DNA of 34,326 nucleotides from Halohasta salina. GTDB lineage: Archaea; Halobacteriota; Halobacteria; Halobacteriales; Haloferacaceae. Below are positions 3,199-33,734 of this stretch, in pieces. A model generated the notes under the pieces. That model was given only the letters and a program-made list of their open reading frames with translations, was not told the DNA's origin and made no database searches. Within the stretch, counting starts at the first letter, position 1. Every line of letters starts with the position of its first letter. The translations under genes were made by a program, and so were the position numbers. The stretch spans positions 1 through 34,326 of the forward strand of contig NZ_JAMZIE010000012.1 in the NCBI RefSeq assembly GCF_024178165.1, written 5' to 3'.

Positions 3199-4167
3199 CT
3201 ACTGATAGCCAAGTTGTTTTAACCGAGTTTCAATAATTTCTTTATCAACAAGGATGCTATTACAACCATCATCTTCAATCTCTCGTCTTTCATCTTCAAA
3301 TTCAGCCCAAGGAACCGTAGTTAATTTTGGATGATGTAGATTATCCGGGTGAGCATAGCGACGCATAGGGAATGGGCGAAGGAGTTCACCAAATAACTCA
3401 CCATGATCGGCAGTCACGACTTTTTTTCCAGAAACGGACTCCAAGTATCTCTGTGCATGATGCCAAGCGTATCCAGTATTTTCACAATATACCTCCCAGA
3501 GCTCTTCTTTTGAAACATCGCCTTCAATGTAGGAGTCTGCTTCCGGGTGTATCCTTGAAGGTTCTTCACGTTCTGTCCCATCTCGAAGTCCAATACAGGG
3601 GGCGTGGGGCTGAAAATAATGGACGATAATCCGCTTATTTGGATACTCTTCTGCTACCTCTATTGCTCGATTGGTAACATCACGGGCAGGAATTGTTGTA
3701 CCATAGTCAAAATCGAATTTCCTCATATCTGTAGCATTAGCCAAGTCAGCATGATCAAGATCGTAGAGTTCTACCCAGAGATTGATGATATCATGAAAGG
3801 AATCAGGAGCTTGCCTAGATACCCACGGATTCGCGCTCACGTACACAGTATCTCCCATCGACTTGCTCGCGAACGTGCGCTTGATCCACTCTGGAGTGGC
3901 AGATCCATTTGACCTCCTTCGTTGGTAGGAGTCACCAACTTTTCCAACCACTTCCTCAAACATATCTGCTCTACAGGCATCCAATATCAATAGGTGATCC
4001 CAATCCTCTACCGCCATATCCACCCCGCTTGAATAAGTATTGTTTATTATGGGAATAAATATAGATTCCTCCAGTCGTGTCTTGGTATAGTTCCGTGTTT
4101 CAGTAAATAATTTTCTTACTCCGTTATTTCGAAATATCTCTATAGCTCTTTTCCATTTTTGGATCAT
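3199..4167 (-). CDS. alkaline phosphatase/sulfatase-superfamily protein 1
   Basis: 322 residues. Superfamily metal-site motifs are visible: LLILDACRAD (59-68) with the first metal-binding Asp, IVHYFQPHAP (181-190), and VTADHGELFGE (251-261) followed by YAHP (271-274). Seen: the classical formylglycine motif C/S-x-P-x-R is absent; the equivalent region reads GSATPEW (88-94), making Thr91 a candidate nucleophile. Known: this superfamily includes sulfatases, phosphodiesterases and phospho-group transferases. Inferred: it modifies or hydrolyses an ester on the surface glycan. No signal peptide is obvious; the N-terminus is Lys/Arg-rich and amphipathic. The protein ends ETRLKQLGYQ, a tail shared with other proteins here. 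It appears to have its own TATA box (4189-4197) 26 nt before the ATG. It is paralogous to the gene at 9010-9936. Confidence 0.8.
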   Translation of the reverse strand: MIQKWKRAIEIFRNNGVRKLFTETRNYTKTRLEESIFIPIINNTYSSGVDMAVEDWDHLLILDACRADMFEEVVGKVGDSYQRRRSNGSATPEWIKRTFASKSMGDTVYVSANPWVSRQAPDSFHDIINLWVELYDLDHADLANATDMRKFDFDYGTTIPARDVTNRAIEVAEEYPNKRIIVHYFQPHAPCIGLRDGTEREEPSRIHPEADSYIEGDVSKEELWEVYCENTGYAWHHAQRYLESVSGKKVVTADHGELFGELLRPFPMRRYAHPDNLHHPKLTTVPWAEFEDERREIEDDGCNSILVDKEIIETRLKQLGYQ

Positions 4168-9009: not shown

Positions 9010-9936
9010 ATGGGTATAATTCCTGGTATTACAGATCGATTGAAAACAGAGATAAATAGATTTGGATTTGTTGATGGTATTAGGTATTGGAAAAGACAAG
9101 CATCTATACGAAGCCAAAATAATGTTATAGGGGTAAATGTATATGAACGTGATTGGGATGCATTGATTCTCTTAGATGCTTGTAGAGTGGATGAACTCAA
9201 GAGACAGTCATGCAAATTTGAATTTCTCTCGGACTTTAATCAAATTCCATCTGTGGCAACACATAGTCCTTCTTGGATGTCAAACACATTCGCAAATATC
9301 ACCCCAACCGAACTAGACAACACAGCCTATATAACAGCCAACCCATTTAGCGAAGAAATTCCAGAGGTACAAAAAGTTGAGTTTTTAGATCATGTCTGGA
9401 AATATGCGACAGATTCATCGCTCAATGTGGTCCCTCCTCGCCCGGTGACAGATAGGGCAATTAAGCTAGCACGGTCCCAATCGTATGATAGACTAATTAT
9501 CCATTACATGCAGCCTCATGCACCGTTCATACGCCAATCAGATGACGACATCGAAACAATTCTAGAGGGGAATCAAAGTGAGAATGATTACGGAGAGGGA
9601 TTAGGTGTATGGCCAGCAATTTATGCAGGTCATGTTGATCTTGACGAAGCCATTGAAGCTTACCGAGAAACTCTTGCTTTTGTTTTAAACGATGTTGCAC
9701 TCCTCCTGGAGAATCTTGATGCCCCCGACACAGTCATCTCTGCAGATCACGGGCAGCTGTTCGGAGAGCAGGGGATCTATGGGCATCCTCCCGACATGCC
9801 ACTCCCCCCTTTGCAGAACGTCCCGTGGGTGAAAACCGCTGCCTCTGATTTAAATACCTATAGTCCGAAGTCATATGACCGTAGTGTCGACGATATAGGA
9901 AGAGATGAGCGTCTTCATGCACTCGGTTATCATTGA
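9010..9936 (+). CDS. alkaline phosphatase/sulfatase-superfamily protein 2
   Basis: 308 residues, paralogous to the protein at 3199-4167. Motifs: ALILLDACRVDEL (51-63), IIHYMQPHAP (163-172), ISADHGQLFGEQGIYGHP (243-260). The position of the sulfatase Cys/Ser motif is replaced by SVATHSPSW (81-89); Ser86 aligns with Thr91 of the paralogue as candidate nucleophile. There is no C/S-x-P-x-R, so an ordinary formylglycine sulfatase is unlikely. The start was chosen because the ATG lies 26 nt after a TATA box. The C-terminus is DERLHALGYH, the shared RLxxLGY tail. An IS1595 copy starts about 6 bp after the stop. The GT operon is divergently transcribed on its left. Confidence 0.8.
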   Translation: MGIIPGITDRLKTEINRFGFVDGIRYWKRQASIRSQNNVIGVNVYERDWDALILLDACRVDELKRQSCKFEFLSDFNQIPSVATHSPSWMSNTFANITPTELDNTAYITANPFSEEIPEVQKVEFLDHVWKYATDSSLNVVPPRPVTDRAIKLARSQSYDRLIIHYMQPHAPFIRQSDDDIETILEGNQSENDYGEGLGVWPAIYAGHVDLDEAIEAYRETLAFVLNDVALLLENLDAPDTVISADHGQLFGEQGIYGHPPDMPLPPLQNVPWVKTAASDLNTYSPKSYDRSVDDIGRDERLHALGYH

Positions 9937-10172: not shown

Positions 10173-11114
10173 CGCTCATCCGTAGGAGATTGTTGATACT
10201 GCTAAGCGGTCGCTCCAGAGTCGAAGAGGACAAGGCCACCGCGTCAGCGGTGGCCGACACGAATGATTCCGCTCGATGTGTTCGGATCGGAAGCAGTCGC
10301 AGCGAATCTGCTCCAACAAGTTCGCTGGTGTGACGGTGTAACTTGTCCTCGCTGCCGTTCTGACCGGACGGTCAGAAACGGCAGCTACAGAGAGTTTCAA
10401 CGGTATCTGTGTAAGAATTGCGACCGCACGTTCAACGATAAGACGGGCACGATTTTCGCTTACTCGAAGATTGCACTCCGTCTGTGGCTGTTCTCGATTT
10501 ATGCGTTTCTCCGGTTTAACACGAGCCTCAGCCAACTACAGTACGAAATTGGAGTAACACACAAAACGGTCCACCGGCGCATCGAGTGCTTCACCAGAGC
10601 ACTTGATGCGCCTTCCCTCGATCTCGTCGGACCAGTCGAAATCGACGAGGTGTACGTCTCTGCCGAAAAGAAAGGCCGCGAGCGCGATCAAGAGTCGCGC
10701 TCGCGTGGCCTGTCCACGCGTGGGCGCGGAACATATGGTAGTGACAAGCCACCCGTGTTCATTATCGCTGACCGCGGTACTGGACAGCGGTACGTTATCC
10801 CTGCGAAAGCCGCTGACGAATCGACGATTCGACTCCTGCTGGCTGACCGCCACCAGGAGTCGCTGACCGTCTATACAGACGGCTTTCGAGCGTACGAACC
10901 ACTTGAATCGGACGACGCATTCGACCGCGAATACGTCGTCCATAGCGACGGAGAATATGCCGACGACGGGGTACACGTCAATACCTGCGAGAGCCACGCG
11001 TCGCTGGTGCGACGGTGGCTCTCGCCGCATCGAGGCATCTCTAAAGACAAGTTGACACAGTATCTCAGAGCGTTCCAATTACGCCGGGAGCTGTATCGAA
11101 AGCCTAGTCGTGTT
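10173..11114 (+). mobile_element. IS1595-family element copy 3, right end lost
   Basis: The left end CGCTCATCCGTAGGAGATTG resembles the IS1595 terminus of copies 1 and 2, and the internal gene is nearly complete. The right inverted repeat is missing: ISH6 sequence starts at 11115, inside the last codons of the transposase gene. The element is inserted in the copy 2 remnant. Confidence 0.65.
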
Positions 11115-11138
11115 GCAAAGTCCTCTAGAGCTCAGTAG
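10263..11138 (+). CDS. IS1595-family transposase, C-terminus replaced
   Basis: 291 residues, open throughout. N-terminal zinc ribbon: CPRCRSDRTVRNGSY … CKNCDRTFND (two CxxC pairs, about residues 29-60). Then a helix-turn-helix region, and the ISXO2-like catalytic domain with VEIDEVYV (first Asp), TVYTDGFRAYEPL (second Asp) and NTCESHASLVRRWLSPHRG. The last eight residues (VAKSSRAQ) are encoded by the ISH6 inverted repeat at 11115-11129. Copy 1 ends instead KEALKSILEAAL, so about ten native residues are lost. Activity is doubtful because the right end of the element is also gone. Confidence 0.85.
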   Translation: MIPLDVFGSEAVAANLLQQVRWCDGVTCPRCRSDRTVRNGSYREFQRYLCKNCDRTFNDKTGTIFAYSKIALRLWLFSIYAFLRFNTSLSQLQYEIGVTHKTVHRRIECFTRALDAPSLDLVGPVEIDEVYVSAEKKGRERDQESRSRGLSTRGRGTYGSDKPPVFIIADRGTGQRYVIPAKAADESTIRLLLADRHQESLTVYTDGFRAYEPLESDDAFDREYVVHSDGEYADDGVHVNTCESHASLVRRWLSPHRGISKDKLTQYLRAFQLRRELYRKPSRVAKSSRAQ

Positions 11139-12038: not shown

Positions 12039-13617
12039 GTAGTTGGATAGCAGTTCCATGCCGAGACGATTTCGTAGCAGTCTCATAGATCGTTCACCAG
12101 TACTGAACTATTGTGTCGCTGGGGAGTCGCGGATCAGCGGAATCGATAGATTCCGTGATCCGCACCGATGATAGTCCGCTACTCCGCCAGCAGTTGGTAA
12201 TCAAAGAGCTTGAGAACCGGTTTCTACGCCGCCAGATCACTGCACAACAACAGGAGATCGAACAGCTTGAGGCACGCCTCAAGCAGTACGAAAACCCAAA
12301 CACACCACCCAGTAAGCAGGGTGGTGCGGCTAAATCACCAGGTGGTGACGGTCAAGACGGGGATGAAGACGAAGAATCTGAAGAAGACGACGCTGGCGGC
12401 GACCCTGACGCCGCCAGCGACTCATCGCCCGGACGGAGTGAAGGTCACGAAGGGACAACACGACCGCCACCAGAACCCGAAGAGACGATTCGGGTTGATC
12501 AGGGATACTGTCCAGACTGTGAGCAAATCCTCTCGAACCCTGATAACTACCTCTCACGAACTGTTATCGATGTCCCGCTTCCCGTTCCAACCACCGTCGT
12601 AGAGTTCCAACTCGGCAAACACAACTGCTCCTGTGGAAACGAGGTCGTTGCTGAGCATCCTGACTGTCCCGAAAAGGGGCGGTTTGGGCCAAATATCCTG
12701 GCCCAAACCGCTCTCGGTCGGTTCCATCAACGACTGCCAAACCGAAAACAGGCCGAGTTGTTTGACTGGGAGCTCGACCTTCCGATCTCCCACCGGACGA
12801 TCTACAACTTAACCAAGCGGGTCGCAGACCGGCTGCGACCCGCATACAACGATGTCAAAGAGAAGATTCGAGAGAGTGAGGTCGTCTACTGTGATGAAAC
12901 AGGCTTTCCGGTTGACGGAGAGCAACACTGGGCGTGGACGTTCGTCACTGATGACGAAGTGCTGTTCTGGGTTGATGAGAGCCGTGGAAGTCAGGTCCTG
13001 GAAGACGTCCTCGGCGAGGAATTCGCCGAGGACTCGACGCTCAGTTGTGACGGCTGGTCAGCGTATCCGAGTTATCACACGAAGCTTCAGCGGTGCTGGG
13101 CGCATCTGTTGCGGGAAGCCGAGTACGTCGCTGAACGGTACGACGAAGCAGAGCGGCTGTCTGGAGAGTTGCACGCACTCCACGACGATCTAACGGCGTT
13201 CGTCGAAGGAGATCCGTCCGCTTCCGCCCGCGAGCAGAAGCGGGCGGAAGCGTCCTTGCACTTAGAGGGCCTGATTAGGGAAGATTACCAGGTCCGAGAG
13301 GTTCAGCAGCTGATCAAGAAGATCAGCAATGGGTTGGGTCATTGGCTGACGTTTGTGACTGAGCCAGACGTTGAATCGACGAATAATCGCGCAGAGCGGG
13401 CTCTGCGCGAGCAAGTAGTCCTTCGGAAGATGTTTCGGACCCTCCGTTCGGCAGAAGGGGTCCAGATTCACGAGACAATAACAACGATGTTGGCGACGTG
13501 GAAACGGCGAGGACTTGACCCACCTGAACAGCTCCAGTCAATTTTGGGTGGGAGAGAACTTCGGTAAGGACGAGAGGCATCACTGAGCGGTGTATCTTGG
13601 TCTTGCTATCCAACTAC
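12039..13617 (+). mobile_element. IS66-family element with perfect 8-bp target duplication
   Basis: Ends GTAGTTGGATAGCA (12039 on) and TGCTATCCAACTAC (to 13617) are inverted repeats. The 8-bp sequence TGTTTCAG occurs immediately outside both ends (12031-12038 and 13618-13625). Removing the 1,579-bp element and one TGTTTCAG rejoins the IS6 coding sequence in frame, which confirms the boundaries. Only the transposase gene is present, without the accessory genes seen in bacterial IS66 elements. Confidence 0.9.
12113..13567 (+). CDS. IS66-family transposase
   Basis: 484 residues from a GTG at 12113; an internal GTG around 12155 is an alternative start. Order of parts: an N-terminal coiled coil (KELENRFLRRQITAQQQEIE, about 30-60), a long acidic low-complexity linker (about 70-120), a zinc-binding region (CPDCEQILSN … HNCSCGNE) and the DDE domain. 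Catalytic blocks are VVYCDETGF (first Asp), LSCDGWSAYPSY (second Asp) and ESTNNRAERALR (Glu). Length and layout are those of a complete single-gene haloarchaeal IS66 transposase (ISH10-like). It is intact and, with clean ends, potentially active. Confidence 0.88.
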   Translation: MSLGSRGSAESIDSVIRTDDSPLLRQQLVIKELENRFLRRQITAQQQEIEQLEARLKQYENPNTPPSKQGGAAKSPGGDGQDGDEDEESEEDDAGGDPDAASDSSPGRSEGHEGTTRPPPEPEETIRVDQGYCPDCEQILSNPDNYLSRTVIDVPLPVPTTVVEFQLGKHNCSCGNEVVAEHPDCPEKGRFGPNILAQTALGRFHQRLPNRKQAELFDWELDLPISHRTIYNLTKRVADRLRPAYNDVKEKIRESEVVYCDETGFPVDGEQHWAWTFVTDDEVLFWVDESRGSQVLEDVLGEEFAEDSTLSCDGWSAYPSYHTKLQRCWAHLLREAEYVAERYDEAERLSGELHALHDDLTAFVEGDPSASAREQKRAEASLHLEGLIREDYQVREVQQLIKKISNGLGHWLTFVTEPDVESTNNRAERALREQVVLRKMFRTLRSAEGVQIHETITTMLATWKRRGLDPPEQLQSILGGRELR

Positions 13618-18733: not shown

Positions 18734-19957
18734 ATGAATGATATTATCATAATCACAGTTGATTGCTGGCGTCATGATGCAATCTCAAAAATGCCAAAAG
18801 TTCTGGATAGTCTAGAAGATTTCCAAAAATCAAAAGCGGTTTGTCATTCTCCATACACAGCCGGAGTTTTTCCTACACTCTTAGCGAGTAACCATGCTTG
18901 GGAAGCTTTCGAAGACGGGGAATTATCAGATAGTACATTTTCTTTGCCGGGCAAACTCTCTAAATTAGGTTATTCAACAGGGGGCTTCGTTGCTGGTAAT
19001 CCATTTCTCAATGCGTGGGCAGATGAATTCGACACGTTCTGGAACGCGGGATATTTTACTGGTAGGGTGAAAAGTAATAAAGTGAAAAAGACGGTAGAGT
19101 ACTTGTACCGTTTACTTTTTCAACGACAGGAAGTCCCGGCGGAAAAAGTATTCAGGAAAGCTAATAATTGGTGGACTAATCAGACGTCTCCGACATTTAC
19201 TTGGATCCATCTAATGGAACCTCACTCACCATATCATCCCGGCCTTCGCAGAGCGAGGGATATCGGATTGGTGGGCTCTTACTATGCCAATCTTGACTAT
19301 AAATTCACAGAGTATCAAACGGCCCAATCTCTTACAAAATTCACGCAGAGGAGAGTGGAACAACTATACTGGGAATGTATTGAATTGTTGGACGATAAGA
19401 TTTCAACTTTTGTTGATAAAATCCCAGAAAATGCTACTGTCTTGTTACTTGGGGATCACGGAGAGGAATTTGATCATGGTGTCTATGGCCATGCTCGTCT
19501 TTATGATGAGACAGTATTGGTCCCATTCCTCAGTAGGTGGACACTTTCAGAACGTGACTTCGGTGAACCCCTACGTCAACTGGATCTAGCACCAACCATT
19601 GTCAATGGATTAGACAGTTCGCTCCCTGAATCTTGGTCTGGAAAATCATATTCTTCAGATTTTACTCCTGCCTATATGTGGTCCGCGCCCGACGTTGGTG
19701 GTTATATTTATGCAGGCATTCGAACAGACCAATTTAAAATAATAAGAACTTTTGATCGAGACATGGAACCTTTAGATCTTGAGATATATGATATAAAAAG
19801 TGATCCAAATGAGTCTGATGATATTTCGCAGTCAAATCCACGACAAAGTCTGGTTAATGCATTAGATAACTGGGCCAGTGAAGAGCACAATGTTGATTTC
19901 ATCTCAAAGAAAAATGATTATGTCCAAGATAGATTGGAAGCACTTGGTTATAAATAA
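18734..19957 (+). CDS. alkaline phosphatase/sulfatase-superfamily protein 3
   Basis: 407 residues. Begins directly with the first metal-site strand, IIIITVDCWRHDAI (4-17), so no signal peptide. SPYTAGVFPTLLAS (39-52) occupies the nucleophile region: Thr42 replaces the formylglycine Cys/Ser, and there is no x-P-x-R. Later blocks are WIHLMEPHSPYHPG (157-170) and LLGDHGEEFDHGVYGHARLY (about 236-255). The fold and motif order are those of sulfatases and phospho-transferases, and a Thr nucleophile favours a phosphate-type chemistry. The C-terminal region includes YDIKSDPNESDDIS, a block typical of sulfatase C-terminal subdomains, and the protein ends QDRLEALGYK. It closes the GT-GT operon starting at 16387 and probably acts on that glycan. 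Confidence 0.8.
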   Translation: MNDIIIITVDCWRHDAISKMPKVLDSLEDFQKSKAVCHSPYTAGVFPTLLASNHAWEAFEDGELSDSTFSLPGKLSKLGYSTGGFVAGNPFLNAWADEFDTFWNAGYFTGRVKSNKVKKTVEYLYRLLFQRQEVPAEKVFRKANNWWTNQTSPTFTWIHLMEPHSPYHPGLRRARDIGLVGSYYANLDYKFTEYQTAQSLTKFTQRRVEQLYWECIELLDDKISTFVDKIPENATVLLLGDHGEEFDHGVYGHARLYDETVLVPFLSRWTLSERDFGEPLRQLDLAPTIVNGLDSSLPESWSGKSYSSDFTPAYMWSAPDVGGYIYAGIRTDQFKIIRTFDRDMEPLDLEIYDIKSDPNESDDISQSNPRQSLVNALDNWASEEHNVDFISKKNDYVQDRLEALGYK

Positions 19958-21085: not shown

Positions 21086-22495
21086 TCACTCCGCGTATCC
21101 GAGTTGCTTGAGTCGATCCATGGTTGCCTGATCGAAGCCCCCCGACGTGAATGAGTTGAGTGAGTTCGGCTCCACTACGATCTCGTTGGCCCGGTCACGA
21201 AGCTCGGCATTCACTGAATCCGACTGGATGCGCTCCTTCGGATCGATATCTGTCCGATACAATCCAGCTGGCTGAATAGATATCTCCGCCGTCTTCCCTA
21301 ATTTATTTGTCTGTGTCACGTGCTTCTCTGCTCCGCTCCGAGCGACGACGGTGTGCCCATAGTGACTGATCGAGTCCGCAAGTAGTACTCCTTCATCTTG
21401 TGTAGCCTCCGTGGTAAGGGAGTGTTCTCGTGATAATGAAAGGGGTGCCTCTATTTTTTTAAGACCACAGAGGTCGGTTATCAACTCGTGGAGCCACCCG
21501 AGTGAGAACTCCCACGAGAGCCGTCCACCATCTTCCCCCGGAACACGAACAATCAGCGGCACGGCGAGCAACTCGTCGTACGTGTAGTGCTGAGGGTGCC
21601 CGTAGATACCTCGATCGTACAGTGCATCCCCGTGGTCGGCTGTCACGATGAGCGCGGTTTCCTCCCAGATGTCGTTTGATTGCAGCCAGTCGACGATCCG
21701 TTTCACCTGACTGTCGGCGTACCGGACTGCACTGTCGTACCGTGCCTCTGTCTCAACATCTTGGACATCACTCACCCGCCTGGCATGTGACCTGAACTGT
21801 GAGAGCAGCCTACCGTCCGAGAATCCACCATCGCCGACAGAATCCGGATGAATCGGTCCGTGAACGTCCATAAGGTGCGTCCACCCAAAAAAGGGTGCAT
21901 CCGCCGCCGACAGCTTGTTGAGGAACGTATCGATCACCCGCTCGCCTCGGACCGAGGGCCACCCCGTGATGTACTGGTAGGTCCGGAAACCAAGGAATGG
22001 AAGCTCATACCGATAGGGAACCGAGTCGTGCTCCCGCATCGATTCCCTAAGCTGGTACAGCCGTTCCCCGACCTGGAGATCTGGCAGAACCGATCTCGAG
22101 CGATCCGCGGTGACGGTCCCAGATCTACCGTCCGTCCGGAGGTTCCTGAAAGTCTCGAATCCTCGATCCGTGTCGACGTGGGTTCCGATCCGGGGGTTGG
22201 AGATTACGCCGACCGTATCGTAACCGGCCTCCTGAAGATGAGAAGCGATTGTTGGCTCACCATCTGGAATCCGCTTCTGGTAGAGATTCTCGCCAGCGAC
22301 ACACTGGGCAGAGAGCCGCCCGGCCAGTATTCCGGGGAACGACTCCGTAGTGACCGGCCCCGTCGCATACGCATTGTCGAAGACGAACCCCTCCCGACCG
22401 AGCGCGTCCAGTGTAGGGGTTGTATCACGGTGATGGCCGTAGATGCCACACCGGTCACGTCGGAGACAATCTATGGTGACCAATACAATGTTCAT
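21086..22495 (-). CDS. alkaline phosphatase/sulfatase-superfamily protein 4
   Basis: 469 residues. First metal-site block MNIVLVTIDCLRRDRCGIYG (1-20) starts at the initiator Met, followed by DTTPTLDALGREG. The nucleophile region reads GPVTTESFPGILAG (46-59), so Thr49 or Thr50 sits where sulfatases have Cys/Ser, without the following P-x-R. Other blocks: WTHLMDVHGPIHP (205-217) and IVTADHGDALYDRGIYGHPQ (283-302). No signal peptide. C-terminus MDRLKQLGYAE carries the shared tail. It is divergent from a GT4 gene, with only 63 bp between starts. Known relatives act on phosphate or sulfate esters; modification of the glycan built by the adjacent GT is an inference. Confidence 0.8.
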   Translation of the reverse strand: MNIVLVTIDCLRRDRCGIYGHHRDTTPTLDALGREGFVFDNAYATGPVTTESFPGILAGRLSAQCVAGENLYQKRIPDGEPTIASHLQEAGYDTVGVISNPRIGTHVDTDRGFETFRNLRTDGRSGTVTADRSRSVLPDLQVGERLYQLRESMREHDSVPYRYELPFLGFRTYQYITGWPSVRGERVIDTFLNKLSAADAPFFGWTHLMDVHGPIHPDSVGDGGFSDGRLLSQFRSHARRVSDVQDVETEARYDSAVRYADSQVKRIVDWLQSNDIWEETALIVTADHGDALYDRGIYGHPQHYTYDELLAVPLIVRVPGEDGGRLSWEFSLGWLHELITDLCGLKKIEAPLSLSREHSLTTEATQDEGVLLADSISHYGHTVVARSGAEKHVTQTNKLGKTAEISIQPAGLYRTDIDPKERIQSDSVNAELRDRANEIVVEPNSLNSFTSGGFDQATMDRLKQLGYAE

Positions 22496-26595: not shown

Positions 26596-27875
<1,280 letters not shown>

Positions 27876-28069: not shown

Positions 28070-28300
28070 ATGGCTGAATCACAGGAGGTAGAGTCGATAG
28101 AAGTACCGGTTGAGCTTCTCAAGCGACTTGAACCACGTATAGAGGCTACTGAATTCAAGAATAAAAGTGAATATATCACTCACATTCTTGAAGAAGTCCT
28201 CTATGAACTTGAACAGGAATCCGATCACTCCGCTGCTGGATCAGTCGACGAGCAGCAGGTTCAAGAGCGCCTCAAGTCGCTCGGCTATTTGAACGAGTGA
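28070..28300 (+). CDS. small ribbon-helix-helix-like protein with RLxxLGY tail
   Basis: 76 residues, strongly acidic. VESIEVPVELLKRLEPRIEA (8-27) followed by SEYITHILEEVLYELEQ (33-49) has the strand-helix-helix pattern of CopG/Arc-type proteins. I see no basic strand that would clearly bind DNA. A linker (50-64) leads to QVQERLKSLGYLNE, whose RLKSLGY is the same terminal motif as in four phosphatase-like proteins of this window. It starts the operon with a GT4 11 bp downstream, an epimerase and a phosphatase-like protein that itself lacks this tail. It may be a regulator, or an adaptor that carries the tail in trans. The second idea is inference only. Confidence 0.7.
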   Translation: MAESQEVESIEVPVELLKRLEPRIEATEFKNKSEYITHILEEVLYELEQESDHSAAGSVDEQQVQERLKSLGYLNE

Positions 28301-28310
28301 CATCTCAGTA

Positions 28311-29453
28311 ATGCGTATCGCTTTCATCTATGACGCGGTATATCCTTGGGAAAAAGGTGGGGCACAGAAACGCATCTGGGAGCTTGCCCGTCGGCTCGCT
28401 GACGATCACGATATCCATCTCTATGGGATGCACTACTGGGATGGCCCGCCAGTAATTGAGCGAGAAGGCGTTACACTCCACGGCGTCTGCGAGCCACGAG
28501 AACTCTATGTTGAGGGACGACGATCGATCCCACAGGCGGTCTATTTCGCTTTGAATGTTCTTCCGTCGCTATTAAAGGAAGATTTTGATCTGATCGATTG
28601 TCAGGAGTTCCCCTACTTTCCCTGTTTCTCGGCAAAAGCCCACGAACTCCTCCGTAGCAGCACCCTCGTCATCACTTGGTATGAGGTGTGGGATGACTAT
28701 TGGTATGACTATCTGGGGGCAAAAGGTATCTTCGGTAAGGCCATCGAACGAACCACTTTACGCCTCGCAGACACGGTTATTCCCATCTCGGAGTACATCG
28801 CATCCGACATCAGAGATATCGGACGTACCCGGGGACTCGAAGTCGTCGAAAACGGAGTCGACTTCGATCGACTGCAGGAGATTCCCAGCGCAGACACCGA
28901 CTGGGATGTCATTTATATAGGTCGTCTTTCAGAACACAAGAACGTCGATCTACTACTCGAAGCGGTCGACATTGTTTCCGAACGTCTTGACAGTAACCTC
29001 TCGTGTGGTATCATTGGCGATGGTCCAGAGCGCGAACAACTCGAAGCCTACGCGCGTAAACTTGATGTCGACGATATAGTAGAATTTCTCGGGTTTGTCG
29101 AATCCGACGAAGATGTCATCGGCAACATCAAAGCCGCCTCGGTGTTTGTCCTGCCGTCGATTCGTGAAGGGTTTCCTAATACGATTCTTGAGGCGAACGC
29201 CTGCGGGGTTCCCAGCATCATTGTCGATCATGCAGAGAATGGCTCGACAGCCGTCGTTGAGGACGGCGTTACAGGATTCATTACGGATGTCTCCTCGGAA
29301 GATATTGCAGACCGGCTCGTAGATTGTCTAAGCGACGATGCGCTGCTTGCAGATCTATCGTCTGAAGCTACAGAATACGGGCGGGCTCACAGTTGGGATG
29401 TGATTGTCGACGAACTAGAAGATGTATATTCAAGTGCAGTCCAGTCAAAATGA
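28311..29453 (+). CDS. GT4-family glycosyltransferase
   Basis: 380 residues. N-terminal FIYDAVYPWEKGGAQKRIWE (5-24) carries the acceptor-side glycine loop. Then DTVIPISEYIASDI and VVENGVDFDRL link to the donor domain: VIYIGRLSEHKNVDLLLEAV, CGIIGDGPEREQLEAYARKL and PSIREGFPNTILEANACGVP, with the E-x7-E donor site. Complete and canonical. It lies 10 bp after the small LGY protein and 10 bp before the epimerase, so it is in one operon with both. Donor and acceptor unknown. Confidence 0.87.
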   Translation: MRIAFIYDAVYPWEKGGAQKRIWELARRLADDHDIHLYGMHYWDGPPVIEREGVTLHGVCEPRELYVEGRRSIPQAVYFALNVLPSLLKEDFDLIDCQEFPYFPCFSAKAHELLRSSTLVITWYEVWDDYWYDYLGAKGIFGKAIERTTLRLADTVIPISEYIASDIRDIGRTRGLEVVENGVDFDRLQEIPSADTDWDVIYIGRLSEHKNVDLLLEAVDIVSERLDSNLSCGIIGDGPEREQLEAYARKLDVDDIVEFLGFVESDEDVIGNIKAASVFVLPSIREGFPNTILEANACGVPSIIVDHAENGSTAVVEDGVTGFITDVSSEDIADRLVDCLSDDALLADLSSEATEYGRAHSWDVIVDELEDVYSSAVQSK

Positions 29454-29463
29454 AGATCAGTCC

Positions 29464-30399
29464 ATGCAATCGAGGAATGTACTTGTCACTGGCGGTGCAG
29501 GATTCATCGGCTCAGAATTCGTCGAAAAATTGTCCGAGACCGAAGCAAACGTCCTGGTGGTCGACAACTGCTTTGCGGGTTCCGAGTCTCTGGTTCCCGA
29601 TGGTGTAGCATTCGAACAGGTCGATATTCAGAGCAACCGACTTTCTGAACTCGTTTCTGATTTCGACCCCAACGTGATTGTCCATCTCGCTGCGATCCAT
29701 TACATTCCGTACTGCAATGAACACCCCGAGGAGGCCTTCGACGTGAACGTGATGGGGACTCGAAATCTTCTGACTGCTGCGCGAGAACTATCGAATCTCG
29801 AGATGATGATGTTTGCATCCTCCGCAGCTGTTTACCCTCCCCGTGAGGGATCCAATAGTGAATCGTCGGAGACCGGACCGACTGACATCTACGGCAAGAC
29901 GAAGTTAATCGGGGAAAACTTGGTTCGGCAGTTTCAGCAGGAGACAAACACGACAACCGCCGTGGCCAGGTTATTCAATGTCTATGGACCGAATGAAACG
30001 AACGAGCACTTGATTCCGGCAGTGTTGAATCAAGTACGAAGCGGAGACAGAAAAATAGAACTCGGGAACCTCACCCCGAAACGGGATTTCATTCACGTCT
30101 CAGATGTGGCGGACGCACTAATGACACTTCTGACTGAATTTGACGATGGCTACGGGGTTTACAATATCGGAACCGGAAGCGAGTACTCGGTTCAAGAAGT
30201 CGTCGAAAAGACCAGTGAGGCACTTGAAGAGGAAATCGATATCATACAGGACAAAGACCGGGTTCGGGAGAGTGACCGCCCGCATCTTCAAGCAGACATT
30301 TCTAAAATGCAGTCCGACTTCGGTTGGGAACCCAAAGTTGAGTTTGTGGAGGGACTCAGAGAGCTTCTTCACCAGAACAAAGAGGTGCTCGTCACGTGA
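29464..30399 (+). CDS. NAD-dependent nucleotide-sugar epimerase/dehydratase (extended SDR)
   Basis: 311 residues from the ATG at 29464; an in-frame ATG at 29422 would overlap the GT gene. NAD-binding TGGAGFIG (9-16) and a VVDN block after the second strand. Catalytic residues: Ser in MFASSAAVYP and the Y143-x3-K147 pair in DIYGKTK. NVYGPNE, KRDFIHVSDVADAL and NIGTGSEYSVQEV are the substrate-domain landmarks of UDP-glucose/GlcNAc 4-epimerase-like enzymes. It probably supplies an epimerised or modified nucleotide sugar to the GTs. The exact reaction (4-epimerase, 4,6-dehydratase or decarboxylase) cannot be fixed. Its stop overlaps the GTG start of the next gene (30396-30399). Confidence 0.85.
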   Translation: MQSRNVLVTGGAGFIGSEFVEKLSETEANVLVVDNCFAGSESLVPDGVAFEQVDIQSNRLSELVSDFDPNVIVHLAAIHYIPYCNEHPEEAFDVNVMGTRNLLTAARELSNLEMMMFASSAAVYPPREGSNSESSETGPTDIYGKTKLIGENLVRQFQQETNTTTAVARLFNVYGPNETNEHLIPAVLNQVRSGDRKIELGNLTPKRDFIHVSDVADALMTLLTEFDDGYGVYNIGTGSEYSVQEVVEKTSEALEEEIDIIQDKDRVRESDRPHLQADISKMQSDFGWEPKVEFVEGLRELLHQNKEVLVT

Positions 30400-31664
30400 C
30401 ACAGCGAAATATCGTTCTCGTTACCTACGATAGCTTGCGTGCCGACCACTGCGGGCATCTCGGGTACGAGCGAGACACAACGCCTAATTTAGATGAGATG
30501 GCAGCTGAGGGAATCAGTTTTCCCGAAGCAATCTCCCCAGCGTCCCGAACGAATCCATCGATGGCAGGAACATTCACAGGCGAACCGATGGTTGCAAGAG
30601 ATCAGGTCGCCGACCCATCGCACTCGCGACGCCATTTAGCCCGCTATGGTACGCTTGCGGAGGAACTCTCTGAGCTAGGATACACAACCGGTGCATTCAA
30701 CCCGAACGCTTACGCGTCCAGACATTACGGGTTCGACCGTGGATTCGACCACTTCGAGGACTTCTTGTTTTCCACAGACCAATATCAGGAGATCTTCCAG
30801 AAGCATCTTTCGGATTCCACAGTGTATACCCTCCTCCGTAACTTCCGGAACTATCTTCGTCGCGAAGAGGCGTTCAAAACGTGGGACCGATATGTCGATC
30901 AAATTGAACAATGGGCTACGTCTCAATCGGAACCGTTCTTTTTGTGGGTCTTCTCGCTCGATACGCATTTCCCACACCTCTCTCCGCGAAAGCATCGAAA
31001 GTGGAGCACGCTTTTCAAGCAATATTATTACAACTGGCGGTGCAATCAGTTGATCGACGACCTAGATCCGGATCTCTCCGAGCGAGAGGTGCAAAAGATC
31101 ATCGACATCTACGACGATTCAATCCGGTTCGGCGATGTTCTTTTGGCTGAACTACGGAACAGACTAGCGGGATTTGACCCCGTCTACATCGTTTTCGGAG
31201 ACCACGGAGAAGCATTCGGTGAACGGGATATCTACGGACACTTTTATCCCTCACTCTATGAGGAGAACATCCACGTCCCGCTGGTGGTTTCGGAGTCGGT
31301 GAAGTGCAATGGAGATCCCTCGCAGCCGATCTCGCTCACACAAATTCCCAACATCGTCAAACAATTCACTGATGCCAACACTCGGCCACAGCTCAGTACG
31401 TGGGCAATCGCAACTGATTATGATGGTCGATATGATCGGAATCTAATCACAGTTCGGACGAAAACGGCCAAGCAGATTGCCACCTGGCAGAACGGACAAC
31501 TTACTAGCACCAACACCTACTCAATGGAAGACGTCACAATTGAGGGGGAGCCACTTTCGGATAAAAGTGAACTCCACGAAAGCTTGCAACCTGTTGTGCA
31601 ACGACGATATAATCACGAATCAGAACTGTGTTCCATTCAGACAGGCGTAAAAAACATACTCTGA
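30396..31664 (+). CDS. alkaline phosphatase/sulfatase-superfamily protein 5
   Basis: 422 residues from a GTG that overlaps the epimerase stop by 4 nt. NIVLVTYDSLRADHCGHLGY (5-24) and DTTPNLDEMAAEG form the first metal-site region. SRTNPSMAGTFTG (50-62) has Thr52 where sulfatases have the formylglycine Cys/Ser, and Met instead of the conserved Arg. Later come FSLDTHFPHLSP and YIVFGDHGEAFGERDIYGHF (second metal site). No signal peptide. Unlike the other four copies it lacks a C-terminal LGY tail and ends TGVKNIL. Fourth gene of the operon led by the small LGY protein. Probable glycan ester transferase or hydrolase; substrate unknown. Confidence 0.8.
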   Translation: MTQRNIVLVTYDSLRADHCGHLGYERDTTPNLDEMAAEGISFPEAISPASRTNPSMAGTFTGEPMVARDQVADPSHSRRHLARYGTLAEELSELGYTTGAFNPNAYASRHYGFDRGFDHFEDFLFSTDQYQEIFQKHLSDSTVYTLLRNFRNYLRREEAFKTWDRYVDQIEQWATSQSEPFFLWVFSLDTHFPHLSPRKHRKWSTLFKQYYYNWRCNQLIDDLDPDLSEREVQKIIDIYDDSIRFGDVLLAELRNRLAGFDPVYIVFGDHGEAFGERDIYGHFYPSLYEENIHVPLVVSESVKCNGDPSQPISLTQIPNIVKQFTDANTRPQLSTWAIATDYDGRYDRNLITVRTKTAKQIATWQNGQLTSTNTYSMEDVTIEGEPLSDKSELHESLQPVVQRRYNHESELCSIQTGVKNIL

Positions 31665-31728: not shown

Positions 31729-32298
31729 TTAGATTCTATGTCCATAGCGCTGTGATATATCCTTTAGAAGTAGCACGAATACTAATCCAAGTAATATAAC
31801 AGAGAATATACTCCAAAGGATGAGGAATATTTGTCCGGGGCCGCCCCACCATGCTCCGGGCGACTTCGAGATAGTAGTAAACGGCCAGAATATACTCGGC
31901 GGAATAGTGCCCTCAAGAAATTTGGGAGTCCAGTCAGTAAGCCAGTGTACAGTATATGCAAATACAAATCCTACCCCAAGATGCGTACGGTCTGTAGTGC
32001 GGGCATACATCAACACAAGCACAGCGACAGGGATAGCGAACGGTAGGGAGTGCATTCCTACCCGCCCCCATGGAACGACTCTAGCCAGTTCGAGTGGCTT
32101 ATCGACGAGATCCGGGAATTGGCTGCCGACGAATACAACAAACAGCATCGGTCTTGTTGGTAGCCGACGATAGCGGAAAAAAACATATCCTGACACTGGT
32201 AGCAGTGCGAGAAGAAAGGTTTCCACCGGTCCAAGAGCGATCAATGCAACCTTTTCTGAGTAGGTCAGGTCAGAGAGAAAATATTTTAAAATTGGCAT
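31729..32298 (-). CDS. DUF457/YbcI-type membrane-bound hydrolase-like protein
   Basis: 189 residues with about four or five transmembrane segments (for example KVALIALGPVETFLLALLPV and GQIFLILWSIFSVILLGLVF). FVGSQFPDLVDKP and WGRVGMHSLP match the Asp- and His-containing loops of DUF457 (YbcI/YdjM-like, annotated as metal-dependent hydrolase), with a further H-W-L-T-D in the fourth loop. Activity in this family is not established. It stands alone, convergent to the preceding operon, and may mark the edge of the glycan locus. Confidence 0.65.
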   Translation of the reverse strand: MPILKYFLSDLTYSEKVALIALGPVETFLLALLPVSGYVFFRYRRLPTRPMLFVVFVGSQFPDLVDKPLELARVVPWGRVGMHSLPFAIPVAVLVLMYARTTDRTHLGVGFVFAYTVHWLTDWTPKFLEGTIPPSIFWPFTTISKSPGAWWGGPGQIFLILWSIFSVILLGLVFVLLLKDISQRYGHRI

Positions 32299-33369: not shown

Positions 33370-33426
33370 ACTTTGTTAATCATAACTTACTAACTATTAA
33401 CCAGATCATTACGGAAAATTCGAGAC

Positions 33427-33441
33427 GAAAGCCTCGTCTTA
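33427..33441. other. short palindrome
   Basis: AGACGA-AAGCC-TCGTCT just before the ATG at 33451 can form a 6-bp hairpin. Role unknown. It could be a terminator-like or regulatory hairpin, or chance. Confidence 0.3.
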
Positions 33442-33450
33442 AGTCCGGGC

Positions 33451-33703
33451 ATGAGCCAACAGTATACCGACTTGGCGGGAGTATCCTGAAGAACCTCCAG
33501 TAATCAAACAGGTCGACGGGTTCCGAACGAACGGCTACAGTCGCGTGCTCGTTGTTCCCGGCGACGCCGTCGCCGCTGCTGAGGAGTTGGCCACCGAGAT
33601 CGTTGTTCCCGGCGACGCCGTCGCCGCTGCTGAGGAGCTGGCCACCGAGATCGGCGGGACCGTACATGTCACGACGCCCGACGGTGTGGCCGACTTGTTG
33701 TAG
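33451..33703 (+). pseudogene. decayed small gene with an internal 51-bp duplication
   Basis: The ATG at 33451 gives MSQQYTDLAGVS and a stop (33487-33489). Another frame continues YPEEPPVIKQVDGFRTNGYS and RVLVVPGDAVAAAEELATEI, ending TTPDGVADLL at a TAG (33701-33703). The two frames join if one shift is assumed near 33480. Residues VVPGDAVAAAEELATEI are present twice in tandem. Codon use is GC-rich, unlike the membrane-protein genes to the left. The family was not recognised. It sits beside the putative origin, where haloarchaea often keep small origin-associated genes. Confidence 0.45.
33551..33652 (+). repeat. tandem duplication of a 51-bp coding unit
   Basis: Units 33551-33601 and 33602-33652 differ at one base (GAGTTG versus GAGCTG). 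The unit is 17 codons, so the duplication keeps frame. Confidence 0.9.
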
Positions 33704-33711
33704 TCGATTAA

Positions 33712-33734
33712 CCATACTCCACGTTCCAACTGTA
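33712..33734 (-). repeat. ORB-like repeat 1 (degenerate)
   Basis: Minus strand TACAGTTGGAACGTGGAGTA. The core is kept but the G-string is broken. Confidence 0.55.

Follow-up and report, generated by a model that had tools for sequence, protein, structure and literature searches.

Enzymes of the alkaline-phosphatase (AP) superfamily that lack a C-terminal LGY tail were found to be accompanied by the gene of a small ribbon-helix-helix (RHH) protein that ends in this tail. In our judgement the chances are about even that the tail is a docking peptide of sulfate activation and transfer enzymes, which the RHH protein, as an adaptor, lends to enzymes without one. In the window, the whole stretch of 34,326 nucleotides of Halohasta salina DNA that was analysed, the RLxxLGY C-termini reported in an earlier note were confirmed on four enzymes (3199-4167, minus strand; 9010-9936, plus; 18734-19957, plus; 21086-22495, minus) and on the 76-residue protein encoded at 28070-28300 on the plus strand (Table 1). 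The fifth enzyme, encoded at 30396-31664 on the plus strand, ends in IQTGVKNIL and is tail-less, and its gene does belong, as had been claimed, to the operon headed by the small gene.

Table 1 Features of the window that bear on the LGY tail
Feature	Position	Strand	Evidence
RLKQLGYQ tail of AP-like enzyme 3199-4167	3202..3225	-	C-terminus
RLHALGYH tail of AP-like enzyme 9010-9936	9910..9933	+	C-terminus
RLEALGYK tail of PF00884 enzyme 18734-19957	19931..19954	+	C-terminus, Pfam
RLKQLGYAE tail of PF00884 enzyme 21086-22495	21089..21115	-	C-terminus, Pfam, AF2
76-aa RHH-fold small protein, C-terminus ERLKSLGYLNE	28070..28300	+	Operon gene 1
RHH-fold domain, residues 5-49	28082..28216	+	AF2 helices, NikR superposition, weak profile matches
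Acidic low-confidence linker, residues ~50-60	28217..28249	+	Residues 51-60 mean pLDDT 54 (AF2)
C-terminal helix and RLKSLGYLNE tail of the 76-aa protein	28250..28297	+	Conservation, AF2
GT4 glycosyltransferase	28311..29453	+	PF00534, E 8e-38
NAD-dependent sugar epimerase/dehydratase, overlaps both neighbours	29422..30399	+	PF01370, E 3e-56
Tail-less AP-superfamily enzyme (PF00884), Thr at nucleophile position, proposed client	30396..31664	+	Pfam, alignment

The operon is compact and encodes, in this order, the small protein, a GT4 glycosyltransferase, a sugar epimerase and the PF00884 enzyme. The small gene ends 11 bp before the GT4 gene (28311); the GT4 gene and the epimerase gene at 29422 overlap, as do the epimerase gene and the GTG start at 30396. 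The window is a glycan island rich in mobile elements (300-1034, 10263-11138, 12113-13567 and 26637-27875), including DDE, IS1595-type and IS66-type transposases and a TnpB-like protein immediately 5' of the operon. A YdjM-family membrane protein is encoded 3' of the operon on the opposite strand (31729-32298). The ORF at 33380-33715 contains a direct amino-acid repeat (DLGGQLLSSGDGVAGNN, twice) and is probably not a gene but a DNA repeat.

The enzymes fall, as the earlier note held, into different subgroups. PF00884 was matched by the enzymes starting at 18734, 21086 and 30396, the last with 118.9 bits against a cut-off of 25, which supports its assignment to the AP superfamily and to this family. 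A Pfam search with enzyme 3199 gave no match, and the sole Pfam match of enzyme 9010 was to PglZ, below threshold. The metal-binding residues D9, D287 and H288 (numbering of enzyme 21086) are invariant in A4, and H300 is nearly so. The nucleophile position is occupied by Thr (T49 of enzyme 21086), invariant in A4 including enzyme 30396, so these PF00884 enzymes are not formylglycine sulfatases; this identity was rejected because the Cys or Ser of C/S-x-P/A-x-R is absent from that position. The label phosphatase-like is better replaced by alkaline-phosphatase superfamily; sulfotransferase activity has been demonstrated for relatives of the same fold (PMC11980604). An AF2 model of enzyme 21086, calculated from a shallow alignment of mostly tail-less sequences, has a sulfatase fold with a confident core, a pLDDT below 50 for residues 441-457 and of about 60 for the tail.

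The small protein is predicted to have the beta-alpha-alpha RHH fold of the CopG/NikR/Arc superfamily. Its single-chain AF2 model consists of two RHH helices (residues 14-25 and 32-56), a weak linker and a terminal helix ending in LGY. Residues 5-49 superpose on the RHH domain of NikR (1q5v_B) with a Z of 5.0 and an rmsd of 1.5 A over 45 residues in a VIA-align comparison limited to two chains. The score against PF01402 is below threshold (14.2 vs 20.5 bits) and the match to the NikR profile is weak; a paralogue in the same family passes PF01402 with 30.1 bits, and a Foldseek search with the model gave no useful match. The superposition and the paralogue's score bear out the earlier description of the protein as ribbon-helix-helix-like. 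The sole invariant residues among 63 homologues from archaea and bacteria are L68, L71, G72 and Y73, all in the tail.

A homologue of the small protein is present in 233 of 292 Halobacteria genomes. Two kinds were distinguished among the haloarchaeal homologues: a core paralogue (..TTVSIPK.LA..VEETIEGTSF..) found in most genomes, and an accessory clade, with identities of up to 63%, located in glycan loci. The core paralogue (L040:7711-8301, L095:8040-8264) lies just 3' of a predicted glycosyltransferase-like gene, near genes assigned by eye to branched-chain amino acids and away from AP enzymes. A GTDB-wide scan further found archaeal members in Thermoplasmata, ANME/Methanophagales, Methanoperedens, Altiarchaeales, Thermococcus and Bathyarchaeota, and bacterial members in Chloroflexi and other bacteria. 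At P-2 of the strand, the position before the proline that aligns with a DNA-contact residue of NikR, 31 of 52 members of the accessory clade have E or D, whereas the strand of the ANME paralogue is a basic K-x-T-x-K, so the family may hold both regulators and adaptors.

Comparisons across related loci showed that the tail is a C-terminal signature shared by unrelated proteins. LxxLGY occurred 88 times in 1025 ORFs of these loci, 79 times at the C-terminus compared with about 2 expected by position, so the shared ending is not a chance occurrence. When the small family, which is enriched in this ORF set, was removed, the motif was still mainly terminal and nearly confined to AP-type enzymes. 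The consensus is [VI]xx[RK]LxxLGYx(1-3) after an acidic linker, and it was found on AP enzymes of at least three types (PF00884, 3199/9010-type and PF01663-type), on CysD-type proteins and on the small RHH family. The logo common to them has a hydrophobic residue at -4 and R or K at -1 (in ~78-100% of the proteins of these five groups), followed by L, L, G and Y, and the Y normally stands 1-3 residues before the protein end. The 25 residues preceding the tail of tailed PF00884 enzymes contain 29% D/E, vs 17% in the core. Genome-wide searches with the tail pattern were noisy and blind to other codons. Apparent matches of the RHH family within long enzymes were either the tail itself or upstream start overshoot; fusions were therefore rejected, and no genuine RHH-AP fusion was found among these matches.

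The earlier note had allowed that the tail might be simply a buried part of the sulfatase fold. This is not the case: the tail is borne by three unrelated folds (AP enzymes, the CysD/PAPS-reductase fold and the RHH protein), it is preceded by a linker that is acidic and prone to disorder, its AF2 confidence in enzyme 21086 is low, and entire clades with the small gene do without it.

The presence of the tail on an enzyme was complementary to the proximity of the small gene. The comparison set consisted of enzymes fetched by similarity to enzyme 30396, regardless of the small gene, together with small-gene loci. Among PF00884-type enzymes with no small gene nearby, 88 of 90 were tailed and 2 tail-less; within 3.5 kb of a small gene, 8 were tailed and 42 tail-less (n=50), many of these loci having entered the sample because of the small gene. 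The association is strong (Fisher p 4e-25), but this p-value overstates the number of independent events because the tail-less enzymes form about two tail-loss clades. The tree of the family contains tail-less clades of 46 and 5, all RHH-linked, besides a few outlying distant rows. Owing to co-inheritance the number of independent tail losses is small, and a test on phylogenetically independent pairs found too few informative pairs. In all 34 haloarchaeal loci where an AP gene lies no more than 500 bp from the small gene, a tail-less one was present at that distance. The expectation that homologues of the small protein adjoin tail-less AP enzymes far more often than tailed ones was thus borne out.

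Position within loci gave the same picture. Where a locus had several AP enzymes, the one nearest to the small gene was the less tailed 16 times and the more tailed 0 times (sign test p 3e-5); in the window, only the operon's own enzyme is tail-less. Tail-less enzymes that had been retrieved without regard to the small gene (L205-L208) have one 12-40 kb away. The pattern was repeated in the PF01663 family, in which 0/3 enzymes adjacent to a small gene and 7/7 located farther off in the same loci are tailed, and whose tree requires at least five changes of tail state, three of them forced by well-supported branches. The exceptions were five tandem loci with a tailed enzyme on the other side of the small gene, and three loci (L070, L074, L075) in which a tailed enzyme lies 1.9-2.6 kb from it. 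A tandem of tailed PF00884 enzyme, RHH-LGY protein and tail-less PF00884 enzyme recurs in L055, L057, L060, L067 and L068; the two enzymes of such a tandem may share a glycan substrate.

Beyond the haloarchaea, the small genes frequently come as a tandem pair and were found next to genes for CysD, CysN, Sat, APS kinase and type I phosphodiesterase, and next to a permease labelled TauE-like by eye. In Methanophagales and Dehalococcoidia, CysDN operons begin with two RHH-LGY genes in tandem (L160:7750-8204, L128:644-1107, L168:1120-1583); the strand of the first gene's product is basic and DNA-binding-like, and that of the second is not. The ANME sulfate paper leaves the small genes unmentioned. 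Of 97 haloarchaeal genomes, 96 encode a CysD-like protein ending in MERLRDLGYM (loci L287-L316). Among 59 haloarchaea, one has Sat and three have a clear APS kinase; the only Sat genome of these (G021) is also the one without the CysD-like protein. This distribution suggests that the LGYM protein serves as the haloarchaeal sulfate-activating enzyme, with no obvious CysN.

Two sulfatase-like AP-superfamily proteins of Halobacterium salinarum, VNG1056C and VNG1057C (Agl30/Agl31), were identified as glycan sulfotransferases by deletion and heterologous expression (PMC11980604), and the window's enzymes match them in superfamily and gene context. Sulfation rather than dephosphorylation is accordingly the likeliest business of the window's enzymes, as judged from fold and context. 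Because these two proteins are proven glycan sulfotransferases, we interpret the tail as a peptide for docking within the machinery of sulfate activation and transfer. The tail of CysD, the sulfate-activation operons (sat/cysDN) and the sulfotransferase function together shift the likely meaning from phosphatase docking, now set aside, to sulfation. C-terminally tagged VNG1056C and VNG1057C are active in Hfx. volcanii (PMC11980604), so that a free C-terminus would not be essential if these proteins are tail-bearing. Our literature search found no account of the route by which the sulfate donor reaches archaeal AP-fold sulfotransferases, and no description of the LGY motif or of such an adaptor.

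We propose that the tail acts as a short docking peptide on a flexible acidic linker, used by CysD-type proteins and by cytosolic enzymes of the AP superfamily that are probably sulfotransferases of glycans or lipids. A part of the AP enzymes would have lost it, and their genes are accompanied by that of the small RHH-fold protein with the same C-terminal peptide. The RHH part, probably a dimer, would bind the tail-less enzyme (here that at 30396-31664) and present its LGY peptides to a shared partner, as a detached adaptor rather than mainly a DNA-binding regulator. This proposal is favoured by the invariance of the tail, the shared logo, the complementarity in both PF00884 and PF01663, the sulfate-gene neighbours and the acidic P-2 of most accessory members, unlike the ANME strand. 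Against it, CysD keeps its tail despite small genes in the same operons, and the core paralogue of most haloarchaea is not adjacent to AP genes. Of the earlier interpretation, supply of the tail in trans has gained strong comparative support from the complementarity; docking to a common partner stays a proposal, to which a pathway can now be attached.

The main rival, which we consider rather unlikely, is that the docking site is the AP catalytic domain itself: in tailed enzymes the tail would fold back or swap within a dimer to complete or gate the active site, with no third partner; the RHH protein would then be a regulatory subunit giving the same peptide to tail-less enzymes. Such docking accounts for the complementarity and the adjacency with one component fewer, and RHH antitoxins offer a parallel, in that the product of the neighbouring gene is bound by their C-terminal part. 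It is harder to reconcile with the CysD-type proteins, which have another fold and the same tail and occur in operons with the small gene, or with RHH genes that also adjoin CysD and Sat; the AF2 model of enzyme 21086 likewise places no confident tail, although its alignment is shallow and mostly tail-less. A generic helix C-cap that arose by convergence, with complementarity as a sampling by-product around the small genes, is already disfavoured and appears highly improbable. APS kinases (L148) and other proteins may end in similar caps, and the small gene was the reason why many loci were fetched, but the motif is nearly always at the C-terminus and occurs in two or three classes of protein, the set fetched by enzyme similarity alone was almost entirely tailed, and the tail-less relatives L205-L208 have the small gene at a distance.

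It is also unlikely, in our view, that the small protein simply regulates transcription of its glycan or sulfate operon, as an ordinary RHH protein whose LGY segment senses the enzyme or the pathway, in which case the complementarity would be only apparent and come from a co-inherited gene pair. The closeness to NikR, the place of the small gene as first in the operon or divergent from its enzyme, the ANME paralogue with its basic strand and PF01402 match, and the few independent tail losses in PF00884 all agree with regulation. The acidic strand residue at P-2 of the accessory haloarchaeal clade speaks against it, as do an invariant part that is the tail and not the RHH strand, and the repetition of the tail-less/adjacent pattern in a second AP family.

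A peptide common to the CysD-like protein and the AP enzymes points to a physical link between sulfate activation and transfer. If the adaptor proposal is correct, a family at best annotated as CopG-like regulators would become a concrete, testable adaptor. A tentative extension, to which we give somewhat less than even chances, is that a prokaryotic sulfation machine, linking sulfate activation by CysD to AP-fold sulfotransferases, uses RLxxLGY as its general docking code, with RHH proteins repurposed as plug-in adaptors for enzymes without it.

Among known systems, Agl30/Agl31 are, like the window's tailed and tail-less enzymes, sulfatase-like AP-superfamily proteins of archaeal glycan clusters, and their description includes neither tail nor adaptor (PMC11980604). 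CysD (PRK05253/TIGR02039) has archaeal and Chloroflexi versions that end in KLRALGYM and operons that contain the small gene, but it is an adenylyltransferase of another fold, non-homologous to the small protein, and its canonical end is KKEGYF; the LGY ending of CysD may be a variant of this ordinary C-terminus. Encapsulin cargo peptides, microcompartment encapsulation peptides and the docking domains of PKS/NRPS are likewise short, linker-tethered terminal helices on unrelated enzymes, and can come from a separate protein; they differ in sequence, and here the peptide is fused to an RHH fold and no scaffold or shell was found. The NikR, CopG and CdrS regulators share the RHH fold of residues 5-49, but the small protein has no metal domain, has a mostly acidic strand position in the accessory clade, and is set apart by its strictly conserved LGY tail and its association with sulfate and AP genes.
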